Of a DNA stretch of 53,942 bases, positions 26,302 to 35,753 are shown one piece after another. The stretch covers positions 1-53,942 of the forward strand of contig JAUZOQ010000010.1 in the NCBI GenBank assembly GCA_030706385.1, given 5' to 3'. The position numbers and the translations under genes are program-made. The notes under the pieces are model-generated. The model had not been told where the DNA came from, searched no databases, and saw only the letters and a list, made by a program, of their open reading frames with translations. This DNA comes from Bacteroidota bacterium. GTDB taxonomy: Bacteria; Bacteroidota; Ignavibacteria; Palsa-1295. Each line of letters begins with the position of its first letter. Within the stretch, counting starts at the first letter, position 1.

Positions 26302-27165
26302 CTATTTTGGCTCCAGATCTTTCGCCGAACCCAGACGTATGCCGATCTCAAACCCATCCTGTTTGATGTCGCCCTCGGCTCCGTAACGGGTTCTTCCGGT
26401 GTGGTACTCGGCATAGAGATCGGCGATCTTGCTCCAAGGCATTGTTCTCCTATAGGTCAGGCCGGCGCTGTAGGCGGCCAGCGTTGGACCTGCTGCAGTG
26501 CTGAGCGTTGCAAAGAACTGGTTTCCGGCATCGTTATAAACTATGAAATCCAGAACTCCCGGAAATTGAAAGCGTTGCTCAATATCTTCTACTTGATGGA
26601 ACACATACTTAACTCCCAGAGATAAGCGAAAGCTAGAGCGCTCGGTTTCATCGAAGAGCGTTTCGAGCGAAACGAACTCGCGGCTGAAGTGACTGCTCGA
26701 TCCACCGACAATATTTTCCGCTCCATCGACAAGATGAGAAGAGATGTGGCTCAGGCGGAAACGCATTCGCCAGGGCCGGAGATTACCACCCCAGATCGGC
26801 AGGGGGAAGATGCTATAAATTCCGAAGAAATAATCGGCTGTCTGCACCGGGAAACGGAAATCGGAATATGCTTTCAAACCGCTCCAGATAAGGCCTTCAG
26901 CTCCGAGAGCGACGGTTCCTAACCGGGTGATCTCGCCTCCGAAGCCTGCTTCGAGCCTCCACCATTGCGGCTTGAAATCGAATGCCGTTCCGAACCGGTT
27001 CGGCTCCAGAAATGAGCCGCGCATTTCCATCCACGTCGGTACCCAATGATCCTTCCAATGATAGGCAGTATACTCATCCTGAGCACGAAGCGAAGATGCC
27101 GAAAGGCATCCTGCGATAAAAAGAGCGAGGAATATTTTCACGTATGGTAGACTCTTCCTTTCCAT
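26302..27165 (-). CDS. outer-membrane protein resembling DUF1207
   Basis: Predicted envelope protein of 287 residues. From the ATG at 27165 it has a signal peptide (KIFLALFIAGCLSASSLRAQ). An upstream reading to 27246 would run deep into the GT2 gene and is rejected. The mature part is rich in aromatic beta strands, with RMRFRLSHISSHLVDGAENIV recalling the 'RLxHxSSHLGD' pattern of DUF1207 proteins. No enzyme motif is seen. It overlaps the end of the GT2 gene by 28 bp, indicating co-transcription. Family assignment is from memory of the pattern and is moderate. Confidence 0.6.
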   Translation of the reverse strand: MERKSLPYVKIFLALFIAGCLSASSLRAQDEYTAYHWKDHWVPTWMEMRGSFLEPNRFGTAFDFKPQWWRLEAGFGGEITRLGTVALGAEGLIWSGLKAYSDFRFPVQTADYFFGIYSIFPLPIWGGNLRPWRMRFRLSHISSHLVDGAENIVGGSSSHFSREFVSLETLFDETERSSFRLSLGVKYVFHQVEDIEQRFQFPGVLDFIVYNDAGNQFFATLSTAAGPTLAAYSAGLTYRRTMPWSKIADLYAEYHTGRTRYGAEGDIKQDGFEIGIRLGSAKDLEPK

Positions 27166-28253
27166 TTTACATCCTTCTGTACATAAAGAATTGGAACACA
27201 TAGCAAGAAGAAGAACAGATACAACTGATAGACAAACAAAAACCAAATAAGCTTCAACTGTTTTAAACCCCGCAATACGGGATAGATGATCACCAGATCA
27301 CCGGAAAACTTCAGCAAGAATACCAGTCCTGCAAATTTAAGGGGTAAAACCAAGGGCGCAGCAATAAGTGTGAATGCTCCGATAAAACCGAGAAGCAAGA
27401 TGATCCGACCCATGAGCTTGATATCCTTACCTCCGATCACCCAACGGTGCTTCTGACGCCACCATGTACTGAAATTGCCGGGCGGCTCGCTCTTTACAAG
27501 CAGTTCGTCATTCGCCTTGAACCGCACCTTCCAGTGAGCCGAATTCCAAATCGTTTGGAAGAGCGCAACATCTTCGGTTACGCTGAAGGGAATGTTGCGG
27601 TAGCCGCCAACATCCTGGTATGCCTGCTTTCGGATGGAGAGATTGTTTCCGATCACGGAAACGGGAATATCATAATTTATCGCAGCCATCGAAAGTCCCA
27701 GCAGCTCCGTCATTTCAAGCGATTGCGCGACGTCGAACGGCTTCATCGAATCCAGCACCGTTATGCTCGAGACCATTCCGGTATTTTTCTCAAACCACCG
27801 CAGATGTTCACGTACCCATTTCGGATTCACGGTGCAATCGGCATCGGTTATCAATACAAACTCACCCTTCGACCTATCCATGCCAAGGATCAGGGCACTG
27901 ACCTTTCCCTGAAATCCGGTATCGGGAACATTCGTCGTTGAAAGCATGTGCAGATGTGGAAGCCTCTTCATCCACTCTTCAAGGATCTTAGACGTGTTAT
28001 CGGTTGAATTATCATCGACTACCAGGATCTCAAGACGATCTGAAGGATAATCCAACTTGCTCAGGGATTCGAGGCAGCCTGCAATATTTTCTTCTTCATT
28101 CCGTGCACAAACAAGTACTGTCACTTCCGGAGCAGTTGCGAACGGAAAATCGGACTTACGGCGCAACCCGCGCAGCAACCCCGGCAGGAATGATACCAGG
28201 CCCAGGAAATACAGGGCTGCGGCAATGAGAATCGAGATTTCGAAGGGGTGCAA
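27138..28253 (-). CDS. membrane-bound glycosyltransferase family 2
   Basis: Processive-type GT2 of 371 residues. One N-terminal membrane segment (ISILIAAALYFLGLVSFLPGLL) precedes the GT-A domain: TVLVCARNEEENIAGCLESL, VVDDNSTDNTS, TDADCTVNP (DxD region), SVTEDVALFQTIW, and WWRQKHRWVIGG, the QxxRW motif. Two to three C-terminal membrane spans follow. Such enzymes make polysaccharide or glycolipid at the inner membrane; the product cannot be named. Start codon is TTG. It lies 17 bp after the FAH-family gene and ahead of the DUF1207-like gene in the same direction. Confidence 0.85.
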   Translation of the reverse strand: MHPFEISILIAAALYFLGLVSFLPGLLRGLRRKSDFPFATAPEVTVLVCARNEEENIAGCLESLSKLDYPSDRLEILVVDDNSTDNTSKILEEWMKRLPHLHMLSTTNVPDTGFQGKVSALILGMDRSKGEFVLITDADCTVNPKWVREHLRWFEKNTGMVSSITVLDSMKPFDVAQSLEMTELLGLSMAAINYDIPVSVIGNNLSIRKQAYQDVGGYRNIPFSVTEDVALFQTIWNSAHWKVRFKANDELLVKSEPPGNFSTWWRQKHRWVIGGKDIKLMGRIILLLGFIGAFTLIAAPLVLPLKFAGLVFLLKFSGDLVIIYPVLRGLKQLKLIWFLFVYQLYLFFFLLCVPILYVQKDVKWKGRVYHT

Positions 28254-29076: not shown

Positions 29077-29508
29077 CTAGTTCTGAGCGTTCAGCCATTC
29101 CTGCAAGATGATCCTTGCAGCCTCTTCATCTTTTCTGAATTTCTCTTCCCTTTTGGTTTTCGTCCAACCCTGCTCAGCGATATTCGACTGCGCCATTACA
29201 GATGTAAGACGTTCATCGTAAAACACGTGCTGGACGTTCTGTGCATCGAGCTTGGCGAATAACTTCTCTGCGAAAGTCCGGACTTCGGAGGTAAATGCAC
29301 TATCAGTGCCTGCCAGTGTTCTCGGAAGCCCAAGAATGACACAGCCAACCTGCTCTTTCGCAACGAGAGCCAGGATTTCCTTTTGGAGACGGTTGGTATT
29401 TTCCAGGATTCCGATCGGACGAGCCAACATGCGAAGTTCGTCGCTTATGGCTAAGCCGACCCGCTTCGAACCATAGTCGATCGCAAGTACGCGAGAGCTT
29501 ATTTTCAT
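29077..29508 (-). CDS. ruvX: Holliday junction resolvase-like RNase H fold protein (YqgF)
   Basis: A 143-residue protein with the RNase H-like start RVLAIDYGSKRVGLAISDEL, VILGLPRTLAGTDS, and VFYDERLTSVMAQSNI, the conserved acidic residues of RuvX/YqgF. Family members process pre-16S rRNA 5' ends in E. coli and have been proposed as Holliday junction resolvases; which role applies here is not visible. Its ATG overlaps the Rel/SpoT stop by one base (TAATG), so translation is probably coupled. Confidence 0.92.
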   Translation of the reverse strand: MKISSRVLAIDYGSKRVGLAISDELRMLARPIGILENTNRLQKEILALVAKEQVGCVILGLPRTLAGTDSAFTSEVRTFAEKLFAKLDAQNVQHVFYDERLTSVMAQSNIAEQGWTKTKREEKFRKDEEAARIILQEWLNAQN

Positions 29509-31778
29509 TACTCTTCGTATCGCTCTGCCGAAGTAACGCCACGGACATGGCGAAGTTTTTCCAGAAGGCGGCTCAGGTGATAGGTATTCTTCACGTAGAC
29601 AGTCATCTTGCCGTCGAACATCTGATCTGCCGTATCGATACTGAACGAGCGGATATTCGTGTTATTGTAGCTCGATATCACGTGAGTGAGATCACTGATC
29701 ATGCCGGGACGATCTTCGCCGTAAATACGAATACCGACAAGATAATCTGCAGCTTCTTCCGTACCGGGCCATTCGACATCGATCAGACGCTCCTTACGGT
29801 TATCCAACTGCATCTGAGAGATGTTATGACAGTTGCGCCTGTGGATCTTTACGCCGTGGCCAATCGTCACAACTCCTACGACATCATCTCCGGGAACAGG
29901 AGTGCAGCATTTTGCATAACTATAGAGAAGGTCATCGCGCTTTCCTTGAATGAGGATTCCGGTTTGCCTGCGGGATTCATCCAGATACGGTACCTCTTTC
30001 GGCACAACTTCTTCCTTCTTCTCCTGGCCTCCGGGTTTGAGCCAATCACGAAGCTTCGTGACGATCTCATCGGCATCGACTTTTGCATCTGCTAATGCCA
30101 GATGAAGCTTACCGATGTTGCCGGAACTTGTCGTCGTGGCAAACTTGGAAAGCGTATCATCGTTAACATGCAACTTCGCCTTCGCAAGATGTTTTTGAAG
30201 GATCTCTTTGCCTTCAAGGATCTTCGTGCGCTGCTCTTCATCCTGAAATTTTCGGATCTGATTCCGGGCCTTGTGGGTGACGACAAATTGCTCCCAATCA
30301 GGATTCGGTTTCTGGTTCTTCGAAGTGATGATCTCGACCTGATTTCCAGAGACGAGTTTCGTATGAAGCGGGACGATCTTCCCGTTGACTTTCGCACCAA
30401 TTGTTCTCAGTCCGACCTGGGTATGGATCTCGAATGCGAAGTCAACAATCGTCGAACCTTTGGGCAGAATCTTCAAATCTCCCTTCGGTGTAAATACATA
30501 TATTTCATCCTGATAGAGATTTAGCTTAAAGCTCTCCATCAGCGCCTTTGGCGCGTCGTCACCGTGTTGCTCGAATACATCCGAAACCCACTTCACCCAC
30601 TCTTCGATCTCCGGATCGGTCTTAGTAATATTCTCCTTGTACTTCCAATGAGCGGCAACTCCCTTCTCGGCAATTTCATGCATTCCCTTGGTCCGGATCT
30701 GAACTTCAACCATCTTTCCGGTCGGACCGATAACGGTAGTATGAATGGACTGATATCCATTCTTTTTCGGCACGGAAATATAGTTCTTGAATCTCTCAGG
30801 AACGGGAGTGTAGATCGATGAAACGATTCCGTAGACTGAGAAGCAATCGTTATCATTCTTCGTATCGATAATGATCCGGATCGCGAAGAGATCATAAAGA
30901 TCTTCGACCTTCTTGCCAAGTCGAATCATCTTATTGTAGATGGAGAAGATATGCTTGGGGCGTCCGACGATCTCGAACTTATATCCTTCTTTCTCCAACT
31001 CCTTTTTGATCGGAGCCACGACTTCGGCAATATAGTTCTCCCGGTCAACGCGTGTCTCAACAAGAAGCTTCTTGATATTGTCGTAGGCTTCGCGGTTCAG
31101 GACTTTGAAGGAAAGATCCTCCAGCTCCCATTTGACCTTCGCCAAACCGAAGCGATGGGCAAATGGAGCATAGACATCGAGTGTTTCCTTTGCCATCCTG
31201 AGCTGGCGTTCCGGCGGAAGGTACTCGATCGTGCGCATATTGTGCAATCGATCGGCAAACTTGATGAGCATAACGCGGACATCATCGACCATCGAAAGCA
31301 TGAGCTTCCGATAGGATTCGGCCTGTGTGATCTCACGCGATTTGAAAATATCGGAGATCTTCGTCGCACCGTCGACGATTCCTGCAACTTCATCGCCGAA
31401 CTCCTCCCTGATCTCTTCCAGGCTGTAGGCTGTATCCTCGACAACATCGTGAAGAAGAGCACAGGCGACGGAGACATCATCGAGCGGGATTTCCTGCGCG
31501 ACGATCATCGAAACGGCAAAGGGATGGATAAAATACGGTTCGCCGGAAGCGCGGCGGTCGTTCTTATGGGCATCGTAACAGAGGCGCAATGCCTTCGTTA
31601 CCATCGGCTCGTCGAAGTTCTTAAGATTCTTTCGGCAGGCCTCAAGAAGTTCGGCTAACTTTTCTTTGTAAAGCGATTCGCTTGTATCGGTAAGATTTTT
31701 TTGAATACCACTTTCCTCTCCATCAGGCGGCGGCCCAGAAGTATCGGGAAGCGGAGCTATGGTACTGTCCCGGACCAT
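29508..31778 (-). CDS. bifunctional (p)ppGpp synthetase/hydrolase (Rel/SpoT)
   Basis: Long RSH protein of 756 residues that makes and degrades the alarmone (p)ppGpp. Domain order: HD hydrolase (FIHPFAVSMIV, CALLHDVVEDTAYS with HDxxED, KFADRLHNMRT), synthetase (SVPKKNGYQSIHTTVIGP), TGS (IYVFTPKGDLKILPKGSTIVDFAFEIHT), a helical and zinc-finger-like region (KCCTPVPGDDVVG; CHNISQ), and a C-terminal ACT domain (GIRIYGEDRPGMISDLTHVIS). Both catalytic sites look intact. It begins two bases past the stop of the TatD-OMP gene (TAG-C-ATG) and overlaps ruvX by one base. Confidence 0.95.
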   Translation of the reverse strand: MVRDSTIAPLPDTSGPPPDGEESGIQKNLTDTSESLYKEKLAELLEACRKNLKNFDEPMVTKALRLCYDAHKNDRRASGEPYFIHPFAVSMIVAQEIPLDDVSVACALLHDVVEDTAYSLEEIREEFGDEVAGIVDGATKISDIFKSREITQAESYRKLMLSMVDDVRVMLIKFADRLHNMRTIEYLPPERQLRMAKETLDVYAPFAHRFGLAKVKWELEDLSFKVLNREAYDNIKKLLVETRVDRENYIAEVVAPIKKELEKEGYKFEIVGRPKHIFSIYNKMIRLGKKVEDLYDLFAIRIIIDTKNDNDCFSVYGIVSSIYTPVPERFKNYISVPKKNGYQSIHTTVIGPTGKMVEVQIRTKGMHEIAEKGVAAHWKYKENITKTDPEIEEWVKWVSDVFEQHGDDAPKALMESFKLNLYQDEIYVFTPKGDLKILPKGSTIVDFAFEIHTQVGLRTIGAKVNGKIVPLHTKLVSGNQVEIITSKNQKPNPDWEQFVVTHKARNQIRKFQDEEQRTKILEGKEILQKHLAKAKLHVNDDTLSKFATTTSSGNIGKLHLALADAKVDADEIVTKLRDWLKPGGQEKKEEVVPKEVPYLDESRRQTGILIQGKRDDLLYSYAKCCTPVPGDDVVGVVTIGHGVKIHRRNCHNISQMQLDNRKERLIDVEWPGTEEAADYLVGIRIYGEDRPGMISDLTHVISSYNNTNIRSFSIDTADQMFDGKMTVYVKNTYHLSRLLEKLRHVRGVTSAERYEE

Positions 31779-31779
31779 G

Positions 31780-32820
31780 CTATTTGTATCTCTGAACTCC
31801 GAACCATCCGAAATATAGGGTTACTCCGGCATTCAGATGCGTAAAGACGATCGGATCGCCCGTCGTATTGAAATCAAATCCCCCTGCCTGCTGCTCTCCG
31901 GTGAAGAGAAATGCAGCACCGATCTGCACGAAAGGTGTAAGAATGAAGTTGTCGCCCAGTTCCCAATCGTAGCGAGCTCCGATCAACCCTTTGATACCTC
32001 CGCGGCTGAACGAATGCTCCAAGTTAGCACTCGGGCCCTTGACTACACCACCGGCAACGGAATCTACAGAATAGTAATCTTGTGAATTGGTAATAGTCAC
32101 ATGCATGTATCCCAGCCCCATGTAGAATTTTACCGGACTTCTGGGATTGATCACAAAGCGAAAATCGAAAGAAAGATACTTTGTCGACATATCTTCATGA
32201 GTCGGCACGAAGTAGTGCGTTGGAATCTTGTTCGTATCCAAATGCGCCGGAGGAGAACTTTCAGATGCGCGGAATAATCCATCCTTGCTAAGGTCGTCGC
32301 CAAAGGTAAAGGAATTATACGATATTTCAAAATCGATCCCTCGTGTAATTGCCGTTCCAATAGAAAAGGATGTGGCAAGAACGGAGGTTGGTGTAAGTGA
32401 TAACCGAAGCCCCTGATTGACTCCGGAAAGATTGCCGACTCCGAGACCAGCACCAATTCCGATGGCCTTCCATACAATAGGAGTTTTTGCTCGTTCGCGC
32501 AAGCGCTCTTCGTCTGCCATTTTTTCAACGGCCCTGATCGAATCCTTCCGAGCCTGCTCCATCGCTTCGCGCATTAACTGCTCTTGTTCCTGCTGCACGG
32601 CTTTGATCGAATCGCGCCGCCTCTCTTCCTGGGCACGCATCAGTTCATCTCGCTGCTTTTTGATGATCTCCTCAGCTTCGCGGCGTTCTTTTGTCAACAC
32701 CGAGTCGGGTGGCTTGCTGCCGGGTTGTGCAAACGTATTCTGGGATGAAAAGAGGAACATCGTCATCACTAGCATGCTAAGTGCGAATAGTCGCCTGGCA
32801 TTGTTCGTAGTCAAAGTCAT
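31780..32820 (-). CDS. outer-membrane protein with coiled coil, read from an internal start inside tatD (alternative product)
   Basis: An in-frame ATG at codon 244 of the fused frame (32820) would give a 346-residue protein. Its first 31 residues form a normal signal peptide: basic n-region with RR contributed by TatD's own C-terminus, hydrophobic LFALSMLVMTMFLF, cleavage after NTFA. The mature part has helical repeats with RRDSIKAV and RKDSIRAV, then strands (LGVGNLSGVNQGLRLSL; GVTLYFGWFGVQRY) typical of opacity-like barrels. Only weak GAG-rich sequence precedes the ATG. I infer this because a barrel protein needs an N-terminal signal; it is not proven. Confidence 0.55.
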   Translation of the reverse strand: MTLTTNNARRLFALSMLVMTMFLFSSQNTFAQPGSKPPDSVLTKERREAEEIIKKQRDELMRAQEERRRDSIKAVQQEQEQLMREAMEQARKDSIRAVEKMADEERLRERAKTPIVWKAIGIGAGLGVGNLSGVNQGLRLSLTPTSVLATSFSIGTAITRGIDFEISYNSFTFGDDLSKDGLFRASESSPPAHLDTNKIPTHYFVPTHEDMSTKYLSFDFRFVINPRSPVKFYMGLGYMHVTITNSQDYYSVDSVAGGVVKGPSANLEHSFSRGGIKGLIGARYDWELGDNFILTPFVQIGAAFLFTGEQQAGGFDFNTTGDPIVFTHLNAGVTLYFGWFGVQRYK

Positions 32821-33549
32821 TATCTCGTGTACGTCTTTCTTTTTAAGTTCAGCAATTTTTTGCGCAATAAGCCCTAAGAATACCGGGCTGTTTCTTTTGC
32901 CGCGATTGGGCACAGGCGCAAGGTACGGAGAATCGGTCTCGATAAGGATCCTATCCTCCGGAGTTTCGCGGACAACATCGGTCAGTGTCGTATTCTTATA
33001 CGTGATGTTCCCAGTATAGCTAACACAAAAACCGAGCGAAACGGCTCTCTTCATTTGGTCGGAATTGCCCGAAAAACAATGAAATTGCCCAAATCCGGTA
33101 TCGGTGTGGCGTTCTCCATAATACTCGGATACGATCTCAAGGGTTTCATCGATGGAATCCCGGGTGTGAATGATAATAGGCTTGCCCAGCTCCAGAGCAA
33201 GTTCAATTTGTTCACGGAATGCCGCTATCTGTATCGGCTTTGGGCAGAAATCATAGTAATAATCAAGCCCTATTTCACCGATAGCTGCAACTTTTGAATT
33301 GTCGCGTATCTCTCTTATGATCCTCTTCCGAACGTCATCATTCCACTCCTTTGCGCTATGGGGATGAATGCCTAGTGCGCAATAGATATTCTTATGTTCC
33401 GATGCGATCTTGAGCGTGGCATCGAAACTTGATAGATCGATTGCCGGAACAACGAAATGACTAACTCCCGCCGCTTCGGAAAGAGCAATGACCTCTTCCC
33501 TATCGGAATCGAATTGTTCGGTCTGGATATGGCAATGCGTATCGATCAT
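31780..33549 (-). CDS. TatD-family metal-dependent nuclease fused in frame to an outer-membrane protein
   Basis: One open frame of 589 residues joins two unrelated proteins. Residues 1-257 are a complete TatD DNase: H5/H7 (THCHIQ), GIHPHSAKEW, IGEIGLDYYYDF (E92), IIHTRDS (H128), FHCFSG (H157), ETDSPYLAPVPNRGKRN and the usual C-terminal TTNNARRLFAL. With no stop the frame runs on into a hydrophobic segment SMLVMTMFLFSSQ, then NTFAQP like a signal-peptidase site, a charged coiled coil (283-350) and a beta-barrel-like region to the end. TatD is normally about 260 residues and cytoplasmic. Either a readthrough fusion or two overlapping genes with an internal start; see the next entry. TAATG overlap with the TonB receptor. 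Confidence 0.85.
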   Translation of the reverse strand: MIDTHCHIQTEQFDSDREEVIALSEAAGVSHFVVPAIDLSSFDATLKIASEHKNIYCALGIHPHSAKEWNDDVRKRIIREIRDNSKVAAIGEIGLDYYYDFCPKPIQIAAFREQIELALELGKPIIIHTRDSIDETLEIVSEYYGERHTDTGFGQFHCFSGNSDQMKRAVSLGFCVSYTGNITYKNTTLTDVVRETPEDRILIETDSPYLAPVPNRGKRNSPVFLGLIAQKIAELKKKDVHEIMTLTTNNARRLFALSMLVMTMFLFSSQNTFAQPGSKPPDSVLTKERREAEEIIKKQRDELMRAQEERRRDSIKAVQQEQEQLMREAMEQARKDSIRAVEKMADEERLRERAKTPIVWKAIGIGAGLGVGNLSGVNQGLRLSLTPTSVLATSFSIGTAITRGIDFEISYNSFTFGDDLSKDGLFRASESSPPAHLDTNKIPTHYFVPTHEDMSTKYLSFDFRFVINPRSPVKFYMGLGYMHVTITNSQDYYSVDSVAGGVVKGPSANLEHSFSRGGIKGLIGARYDWELGDNFILTPFVQIGAAFLFTGEQQAGGFDFNTTGDPIVFTHLNAGVTLYFGWFGVQRYK

Positions 33550-35753
33550 TAAAATAACGTTTCGACTCTGAGTGAAAAATTTCGAATCGGGGCAATATTA
33601 CCCACGATCTCTACGTAATAGTAATTCAAAAGATTCTGAACCTGCAGACTGAAAATGACCGGCATTCCGAACAAGCCATGCATTGCATAGCCAAGCCGGA
33701 CGTCCCATATATAGGCATTCACACGGGCGTCTCCATCAGGTACCTGCTTGATCAGTATCGAATCCACCGATTCGTATTTCGAGATGTAACGAAAATCGGA
33801 GGAGAGCGACCATGAACCAAGCTTCGTCTCTGCACGCGCTTGCAACAAATGCCTCGGCCGGAAGTTCAGGATCTGCTTCGTTATCCTGTCCCGAGGAAAT
33901 ACGTACGTATAGCCGAGGCGTAACGTCAGATCGTCATTAGAAAAAGGGTAATATTCAATGACCTCTTCATGGCCGAATATCTCTGCTTTTGTAAGATTGC
34001 CAAACTGGATGACCGAGGCTCCATTCTGGCTCACGAAATGTGCCTCGATCAGATTGTCGAACGACGAATAAAACATTGCACCATCACAGAAAATATGTTG
34101 GTCCCTGTAGCTTCCGCCGATCTCCGTTGATATGCTTCGTTCGGGTACGAGGTCAGGATTCGGTATGACATGAAATCCGCTAAAGGTTTGATCGATATAT
34201 TTTTCGCCAATCGTCGGAGCGCGGAAGCCTGTTCCGAACGAAGCCCGGAAATCAAATCCGCCTCCCGCATTCAGAGATGCGCCGAACTTTGGCGAGATAC
34301 TTCCTAGAGAGGACGATTCATCATACTTCAATCCATCGGCCCGGAGACCGAGAGTCAATATGAACGGAGAAAGTTTATACTCCCCTTGCGCAAAAGCTCC
34401 GAGCGATGTTCCGTGATGGCTTTGGAACAGATCGGAATTCACATTCTGATACAAACCAAGAATGCCTGTCGTCAAATAGAGCGAATCCAGGATGTCGCTG
34501 TTGCTTTCGAATTCGAGATAGTAGTTCGTTGCATTCGAATGCGGACCCGGCGTACCACCGGATACCGTCGGATCGGTCGAAAACTGAGTGTAGAGCACAC
34601 TTGCCCGCGTTGTTAGTAGGAAATGATCGCTGAGAATACTTTGAAGCGATGATTGCACGTTTGCCTTCATTGAGTGAATTCGTCCGTTGATCGCTCCGAG
34701 AGAATCCGACGGGAAGAACGCATGGTTGAGATCCTTCCAATACAGGAATCCGCCGTGATCTTCATTGGCAAAGAGCAGGCTCGTCTCGAAGCGGTCATGG
34801 TCGGAAAATGGAGTGGTCACTTTTGCAAACCCGCTTGACTTATAGGAATCATCACCGAGCCTATAGCCCTCATTGCGCCGCGCAGCAAAGCTGGCAAGCA
34901 AGCCGGTCTTATCTATCGTGCAGGATGCCCCGCCTTCAATGGATGCGAACCTTCGTGTTTCATCCGTGATCCGCCATTCCGGATATTTTACTTTATCGTA
35001 GAATCCGGCATTCGCGTTGATCGCGCCAATCAATGTATCGCTCGGCTTTCTTGTAATGACATTGATGACTCCGCCCAATGCGCTTGAACCATAGAGAGCA
35101 GATCCTGCGCCCTTGACGACTTCGATACGCTCAATATTCATGAGTGGCAACGCATCAAACTTGATATCGCCATTATCGGCGGAGAGAAACGGCATTCCGT
35201 CCAGCAAGAAAAGGACTCGAGAACCGACAGATCGTGCATACCCGGATGAGCCGCGAATATTTACTTGTGACTCGGTCACCGATACTCCGGGAATATATCG
35301 CAGCGCATTATCCACTGCCTCCGGTGAACGGCCGTTAATCTCATCGGCCTTTACAATGCTCATCGAAACGGGAATATCCTGCACTGCCGTAGTATGGCGT
35401 TGAGCAGTAACGACGATATCCTGGCCGAGAACTGCCTTCTCCACCAGCTCGATTGTGAAATTATTTTCTTTCGGTACGGCAATTGTCGTATCGTAGTAAC
35501 CAAGCACAACGATGCGGATAAATCGCACACTGTCACTGCGGATAAGAAACTCACCGCTGACCTTGGTGATCTGTTTCCGAAGAGGCTCTTTTGTTCTCGA
35601 GAGAGCTTCTACGAGAGCTCCCGCTATAGGCTCATGAGTCTTTCTATCTTTGACGAAGCCGTGAATCAACGATTGATTCGTCGTCTCACCTTGTCCGAAA
35701 GCGATCGGCGGCGCCAGAAGCGAGAGGAGCAATATGATTGCGATGGACTTCAT
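33549..35753 (-). CDS. TonB-dependent outer-membrane receptor
   Basis: Energised outer-membrane importer of 734 residues. Signal peptide (IAIILLLSLLAPPIAFGQ), a carboxypeptidase-regulatory-like domain (LIHGFVKDRKTHEPIAGALVEA, about residues 30-105), plug domain (DIVVTAQR, VDNALRYIPGVSV, VNIRGSSGYARSVGSRVLFLLDGMP, VEVVKG-like IEVVKGAGSALYGSSALGGVINVITRK), then a 22-strand-type barrel ending in LRVETLF with terminal Phe. The ligand (siderophore, cobalamin, sugar, peptide) cannot be told. It overlaps a small lipoprotein gene upstream by four bases and the tatD-OMP gene downstream by one, so it is inside a five-gene operon. Confidence 0.93.
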   Translation of the reverse strand: MKSIAIILLLSLLAPPIAFGQGETTNQSLIHGFVKDRKTHEPIAGALVEALSRTKEPLRKQITKVSGEFLIRSDSVRFIRIVVLGYYDTTIAVPKENNFTIELVEKAVLGQDIVVTAQRHTTAVQDIPVSMSIVKADEINGRSPEAVDNALRYIPGVSVTESQVNIRGSSGYARSVGSRVLFLLDGMPFLSADNGDIKFDALPLMNIERIEVVKGAGSALYGSSALGGVINVITRKPSDTLIGAINANAGFYDKVKYPEWRITDETRRFASIEGGASCTIDKTGLLASFAARRNEGYRLGDDSYKSSGFAKVTTPFSDHDRFETSLLFANEDHGGFLYWKDLNHAFFPSDSLGAINGRIHSMKANVQSSLQSILSDHFLLTTRASVLYTQFSTDPTVSGGTPGPHSNATNYYLEFESNSDILDSLYLTTGILGLYQNVNSDLFQSHHGTSLGAFAQGEYKLSPFILTLGLRADGLKYDESSSLGSISPKFGASLNAGGGFDFRASFGTGFRAPTIGEKYIDQTFSGFHVIPNPDLVPERSISTEIGGSYRDQHIFCDGAMFYSSFDNLIEAHFVSQNGASVIQFGNLTKAEIFGHEEVIEYYPFSNDDLTLRLGYTYVFPRDRITKQILNFRPRHLLQARAETKLGSWSLSSDFRYISKYESVDSILIKQVPDGDARVNAYIWDVRLGYAMHGLFGMPVIFSLQVQNLLNYYYVEIVGNIAPIRNFSLRVETLF

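Follow-up and report, generated by a model that had tools for sequence, protein, structure and literature searches.

One stop-less reading frame for a TatD nuclease and a predicted outer-membrane barrel in Ignavibacteria, with a probable second start inside tatD

The window analyzed here, i.e., the whole stretch of 53,942 nucleotides from contig JAUZOQ010000010.1 of a Bacteroidota bacterium of the class Ignavibacteria (assembly GCA_030706385.1), contains a tatD gene that has no stop codon of its own and continues in frame, through a signal peptide, into a domain related to outer-membrane barrels. We propose that this one open frame probably serves two proteins, a long TatD-OMP form and a short barrel form that is started internally. 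At the level of sequence, the proposal builds on a conserved stop-less fusion, on selection on both of its halves, and on signatures of a start and a ribosome-binding site.

The fused frame and its two halves

The frame runs unbroken from TatD to the OMP part, as the first-pass annotation had read it, and is complete in the ORF list (33549→31780, 589 codons); the coordinates given there were borne out, and the strand, about which it was silent, is the minus strand (Table 1). The TAA stop of the gene for a TonB-dependent receptor and the ATG of tatD overlap by one base (TAATG), and the gene for a RelA/SpoT homologue begins one base past the stop of the fused frame, the arrangement being that of a packed operon. 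Elsewhere in the window, a 314-codon ORF called from a TTG (26302-27246, minus strand) overlaps an upstream glycosyltransferase-like ORF, its true start probably being the internal MERKSLPYVKIFLALFIAGCLSASSLRAQ signal peptide.

Table 1. Features of the fused locus and its neighbors, in window coordinates.
Feature	Position	Strand	Basis
Whole fused tatD-omp frame, 589 codons + TAG stop	31780..33549	-	ORF list, same frame in relatives
TatD nuclease part, residues 1-257	32779..33549	-	PF01026 and TIGR00010
ATG inside tatD (codon 244), candidate start for the short barrel form	32818..32820	-	Conservation, low RNA structure
Signal peptide M244-A274, predicted signal peptidase I site between A274 and Q275	32728..32820	-	Hydrophobicity, charge, -3/-1 pattern
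Charged helical, coiled-coil-like segment, residues ~283-354	32488..32703	-	AlphaFold helix, alignment
Predicted outer-membrane barrel domain, residues ~361-589	31783..32469	-	Profile-profile match, PF13505 and Foldseek of relatives
Upstream TonB-dependent receptor gene	33549..35753	-	ORF list and Pfam
Downstream RelA/SpoT homologue	29508..31778	-	ORF list and Pfam

As to the first half, Pfam TatD_DNase (PF01026) spans residues 2-255 of the window protein (E 3.8e-78), TIGR00010 matches the same part above its cut-off, the metal-site residues D3, H5, H7, E92, H128, H157, and D206 do not vary among the 23 fused relatives aligned, and Foldseek recognizes TatD nucleases in the first half of a relative, L112. 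Judged by these matches, residues 2-255 are a complete, predicted metal-dependent nuclease of the TatD family. An identity of the window protein as a TatD-linked radical SAM protein was dismissed, as it has no match to TIGR04038, which was found only in relatives of the L013 type. The TatD fold ends in NNARRLFAL, directly followed by SMLVMTMFLFSSQNTFA↓QP (the arrow marks the predicted cleavage site); a hydrophobic segment, the motif NTFAQP and a charged helix thus succeed the enzyme, and then the C-terminal domain related to outer-membrane barrels.

This C-terminal part has no Pfam match of its own in the window and is tied to barrels by profile-profile comparison (P 92.5%, E 4.7e-7 for the C-terminal domain of the window's family, f1, against the barrel part of other families), and PF13505 matches 8 of 19 relatives with the fusion (best 5.6e-7; above the cut-off in G018). 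An AlphaFold model of full-length L112, only indicative at a mean pLDDT of 59, has, with low confidence, an unbroken helix from the TatD C-terminus through the hydrophobic segment, followed by eight long strands, and Foldseek places the second half of this low-confidence model with barrels of the OmpA, OprF, NspA, OmpW, and Ail types. By homology, the C-terminal domain of the window protein is predicted to be related to outer-membrane barrels, and its role, as a default guess for an 8-strand barrel, would be OmpA-like structural or that of a small pore. AlphaFold also places a helix at 9-80 of the mature window part. This helix, long, highly charged and made up of repeated RRDSIKAV/RKDSIRAVE units, is by alignment peculiar to f1, being missing from the other families, and is possibly a periplasmic spacer. 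The other PF13505 barrels of these genomes are mostly encoded in frames of 200-290 codons. Further enzyme-barrel fusions in the same genomes were considered and rejected: in 14 long-frame PF13505 regions the clear hydrophobic segments are ordinary N-terminal signals, and the 887 codons of a frame in G013 are open only by chance.

Conservation of the fusion across the class

Counting the window's own genome, eleven f1 genomes gave a match, and all of them have the fused frame, at overall identities as low as 44%. The class-wide survey covered 294 genomes, from which 59 loci were taken (a 60th region, a 10-base placeholder, was left out), and the TatD–signal peptide–barrel architecture is encountered in families f1, f4, f7, f14, f15, f19, f24, f25, f27, f28, f29, and f30. 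The 75 distinct junction sequences of these 12 families are all open in frame, with neither a stop nor a linker, and the junction is kept even where identity to the window protein falls to about 30%. The search for the same junction in related genomes that the first-pass annotation had recommended has a uniform outcome: every complete homologous junction, in all 12 families, is open. In a scan of named genomes, the matches listed are mostly unrelated TatDs, and among them only L111 and L112 have the fusion; the named genomes with it include at least 'Ignavibacteriae bacterium HGW-Ignavibacteriae-4' and 'Ignavibacteria bacterium CoA_1_bin.73.'

When a full-length profile was run against 296 genomes of the phylum, end-to-end matches were obtained only in the fused families; among the other matches listed, the profile covers TatD alone. 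Unfused TatDs elsewhere in the phylum end with a normal stop, and in the sister families TatD either has its own stop or is fused to a TIGR04038 radical-SAM domain. Such in-frame radical-SAM fusions (L013, L022, L025, L028, L121, and others) are found in sister families f3, f5, f8, f10-f12, f16, f18, f22, f23, f26, and f31, so that C-terminal fusions to TatD recur in the class. Searched with a profile of the C-terminal domain, 149 genomes yield no stand-alone copy of the barrel; each positive genome has a single match, which lies within the fused frame in every case. The f1 barrel is too divergent for this profile and was linked by the profile-profile comparison. On the TatD tree, the distribution of the fused genes calls for two state changes, and the TatD-OMP fusion may have had one origin.

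In twelve pairs of relatives, dN/dS is 0.03-0.12 in both halves wherever dS is unsaturated; the selection on both is strongly purifying, indicating that both proteins are real and needed. As tatD lacks its own stop in every fused genome, TatD can be made only within the TatD-OMP chain, and it can exist only as the fusion or as a cleavage product of the fusion, which is a logical consequence of the frame and not a deduction about expression. The f14 genomes (e.g., G028, G046, G201) encode a second, distant TatD-like gene elsewhere (~230-276 codons, E about 1e-4 to 1e-13), in contrast to G000, where the fused TatD is the sole TatD.

Predicted signal peptide and probable internal start

From codon 244 (ATG at 32820), the window frame reads MTLTTNNARRLFALSMLVMTMFLFSSQNTFA↓QP, a proper signal-peptide layout whose n-region is built from the C-terminal residues of TatD. 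The initial observation that TatD's own C-terminus makes the signal peptide is sound for the window and extends to all fused sequences: each of the 75 has a hydrophobic core, beginning a mean of 2.5 residues past the TatD 'LF,' along with a net positive TatD-derived n-region and a small residue at the predicted -1 position (75/75), and the predicted cleavage site is A↓Q in 49 of the 75. None of 35 TatD-rSAM controls has the hydrophobic core. Two Peptidase_S26 genes are present in the genome, and cleavage by signal peptidase at NTFA↓QP appears to be the likeliest fate of the TatD-OMP chain in the window. The short product would count 315 residues from Q275, matching the roughly 315 predicted at the outset.

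An ATG is present within the last 18 TatD codons in 67 of 75 fused sequences, versus 4 of 35 rSAM-fused and 29 of 87 free TatDs. It is located at -9 in most of f19, f7, f28, and f30, at -10 in most of f15, at -11 in f1, and at -17 in most of f14 and f24. Only 4 sequences combine an early with a late ATG, while 58 have one of them alone, a complementarity that is not significant once relatedness is respected (tree-independent contrasts leave too few pairs). Methionine at -17 is also found in 11 of 87 free TatDs, so inheritance may explain part of the ATG excess.

The codons 5' of the internal ATG spell Shine-Dalgarno-like motifs, GAG GTT/GTA ... ATG or GCG GAG ... ATG. Their mean matched length is 3.21, versus 1.51 under synonymous reshuffling with each gene's own codon usage (z 8.1), and matches of at least 4 bases are found in 66% versus 26% after reshuffling. 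Neither same-zone methionines of unfused TatDs (z -0.4) nor other methionines of fused TatDs (z -0.7) have such an excess. The motif also shifts with the start. With ATG at -9, GAG is the codon for 23 of 30 glutamates at -14..-12 (9.0 expected) and for 4 of 21 at -22..-20 (6.9 expected), while with ATG at -17 the respective counts are 3 of 12 (5.6 expected) and 13 of 18 (8.3 expected). In L044/L111, ATG at -17 is preceded by GAG GTT, and other f19 members have both 8 codons later. The reshuffling, the controls from unfused TatDs and from other methionines, and the GAG shift led us to reject the motif as a by-product of the TatD EEV helix or of codon bias. In addition, the start zone is less structured than its synonymous variants (z +0.92±0.22 in f1 and +0.33±0.10 in the other families, -0.12 in controls), and synonymous differences at conserved residues are fewer around the ATG (0.37 versus 0.48, only 0.0005 of random windows being as low). 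Shine-Dalgarno sequences accompany 11-24% of long-ORF starts, by crude start calls, in f1, f7, f14, f15, f19, and f24; being this rare there, they leave the internal site better equipped than average.

Enrichment of ATG, a Shine-Dalgarno-like motif that shifts along with it, synonymous constraint, and weak RNA structure all support the internal initiation that the first-pass annotation had invoked. Its branch of nested genes in the same frame, with one region acting as enzyme C-terminus and secretion signal, gains class-wide support as well, except that the genes are not fully separate, tatD being stop-less. Internal initiation is very likely in f19, f7, or f14, and across the class it is common, not universal: no convincing candidate for an internal start was found in f29, L009, L012, or L109. 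The fused members that lack a convincing internal ATG, namely L009, L012, L081-L083, L109, and L194, some of them with a GTG or TTG nearby, may depend entirely on the long form.

In f1, the ATG at 32820 is kept in 9 of the 11 members, L009 and L012 being the two without it, and 0 of 104 unfused TatDs have an ATG in this column; no Shine-Dalgarno sequence is found at this ATG in the family. The start originally placed at 32820 thus has conservation and low structure on its side and the Shine-Dalgarno evidence against it, and we consider internal initiation here likely, with less certainty than in f19, f7, or f14.

Two proteins probably made from one frame: proposed mechanism, rivals, and precedents

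We infer the production of both proteins and the processing of the long form, as follows. Translation from the tatD start would give the long form, i.e., TatD nuclease, no stop, an internal signal peptide and the outer-membrane barrel. In most lineages the short form would arise from a second in-frame start, located within the last 9-17 tatD codons and mostly preceded by a Shine-Dalgarno-like motif that tatD codons spell out. This form would be a barrel that begins with a standard Sec signal peptide, the C-terminal helix of TatD supplying the positive n-region; signal peptidase I would cut it (at NTFA↓QP in the window) and the barrel would proceed to the outer membrane. The long form would most likely be a precursor, with the positive residues kept cytosolic and the internal signal acting as a signal-anchor in the N-in/C-out orientation, and a cut at the same site would free the barrel, while TatD would stay at the inner membrane, carrying a hydrophobic tail at its C-terminus. 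A wider reading, possible and in our judgment somewhat short of an even prospect, is that of an ancient class-wide gene in which the last helix of TatD serves as its C-terminus, as the ribosome-binding site and start for the barrel and as a signal peptide, while polyprotein cleavage tethers TatD to the inner membrane and links how much of it is present to export.

It is also conceivable, if unlikely for the class at large, that the long form alone is translated, as a pure polyprotein whose internal signal exports the C-terminal half, signal peptidase I making both products and the ATGs encoding ordinary methionines. The long chain must be made, since tatD never has a stop, and signal and cleavage site are retained without a convincing internal start, e.g., in f29; the retention of signal and barrel by f29 and a few others in this situation points to a long form that can deliver the barrel on its own. 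For f29 this account is plausible, and perhaps it holds for L009 and L012, but it leaves unexplained the Shine-Dalgarno-like excess, the shift of the motif with the ATG and the synonymous constraint at the start zone. A single intact protein, uncleaved and anchored in the membrane between a cytosolic TatD and a periplasmic C-terminal domain, would agree with the conserved covalent linkage, and bitopic proteins with large cytosolic domains do exist. However, as long as it is anchored in the inner membrane, a half that resembles an outer-membrane barrel has no way to the outer one, and the cleavable c-region is retained (A↓Q in 49 of 75), making this very improbable.

The other branch of the first-pass annotation, the loss of a stop, can be given next to no weight as a recent event confined to this strain and devoid of functional meaning: the junction is ancient, the same one being common to 12 families down to about 30% identity. 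An assembly or base error that hides a stop codon is just as hard to credit, with the junction open in all complete homologous loci of the 12 families, including those in genomes of one to ten contigs (e.g., G037, G046, G220, G002).

The reading of one frame for two proteins has partial precedents. In-frame internal starts are established for ClpB, InfB, MrcB, and SsaQ/SpaO, and in Salmonella internal starts have a better than average Shine-Dalgarno context (PMC11005335). These proteoforms would share with TatD-OMP a second start in the same frame inside a gene and the better-than-average Shine-Dalgarno sequence, but their short forms are truncations of the same protein, whereas the short form of TatD-OMP would be an unrelated protein. 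The short form of PagC/OmpX loses a signal peptide; that of TatD-OMP would gain one, from an enzyme domain. Cas11b is translated from within cas8b (PMC11899642). As proposed for TatD-OMP, a separate C-terminal protein is initiated, in the same frame, at an internal methionine of a longer and likewise needed gene, yet the Cas products share one cytosolic complex, while those of TatD-OMP are predicted in different compartments. In phage lambda C/Nu3, the 3' part of a protease gene doubles as an independent gene that is read in the same frame from a start of its own; these are viral assembly genes with no signal peptide and no change of compartment, both of which are predicted for TatD-OMP.

With regard to processing, one frame encodes both proteins of the FbcH cytochrome b/c1 polyprotein of Bradyrhizobium, signal peptidase acting at the internal signal peptide in front of the second, and FbcH is not known to have an internal start. 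The same combination, one stop-less frame and an internal signal peptide with a cleavage motif, is found at the 75 junctions, the difference being that the parts of FbcH are respiratory subunits of one complex, the first already a membrane protein, whereas TatD is a cytosolic enzyme. Bitopic proteins with a large cytosolic N-terminal domain are a precedent for the topology of the long form. TatD-rSAM (TIGR04038), very common in the sister families, resembles TatD-OMP in carrying an in-frame C-terminal extension on TatD, but this extension is a cytosolic rSAM domain, with a hydrophobic segment in 0 of 35 and an internal ATG in 4 of 35. Finally, the barrel half may be akin to 8-stranded barrels of the OmpA/OprF/OmpW type (PF13505), given its matches (8 of 19) and the low-confidence fold of L112; the long PF13505 frames checked have an N-terminal signal where one was seen, whereas the TatD-OMP barrel exists, in the 149 genomes, only behind TatD. 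In a search that reached few subscription papers, no description came to light of a stop-less frame shared by a cytosolic enzyme and an outer-membrane protein in which the C-terminus of the enzyme acts as the signal peptide.

The products of known in-frame nested genes are for the most part shortened versions of one protein. In the TatD-OMP fusion, two unrelated proteins, predicted to be differently localized, are locked in one frame across at least 12 families, and one stretch of DNA would perform a triple duty, as the C-terminus of an enzyme, a ribosome-binding site and start, and an export signal. Annotation pipelines would call such a gene a 'TatD hydrolase' with a long tail, missing an outer-membrane protein in each genome. 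The fusion also makes testable the bacterial use and cleavage of an internal signal peptide behind a cytosolic domain of 255 residues.
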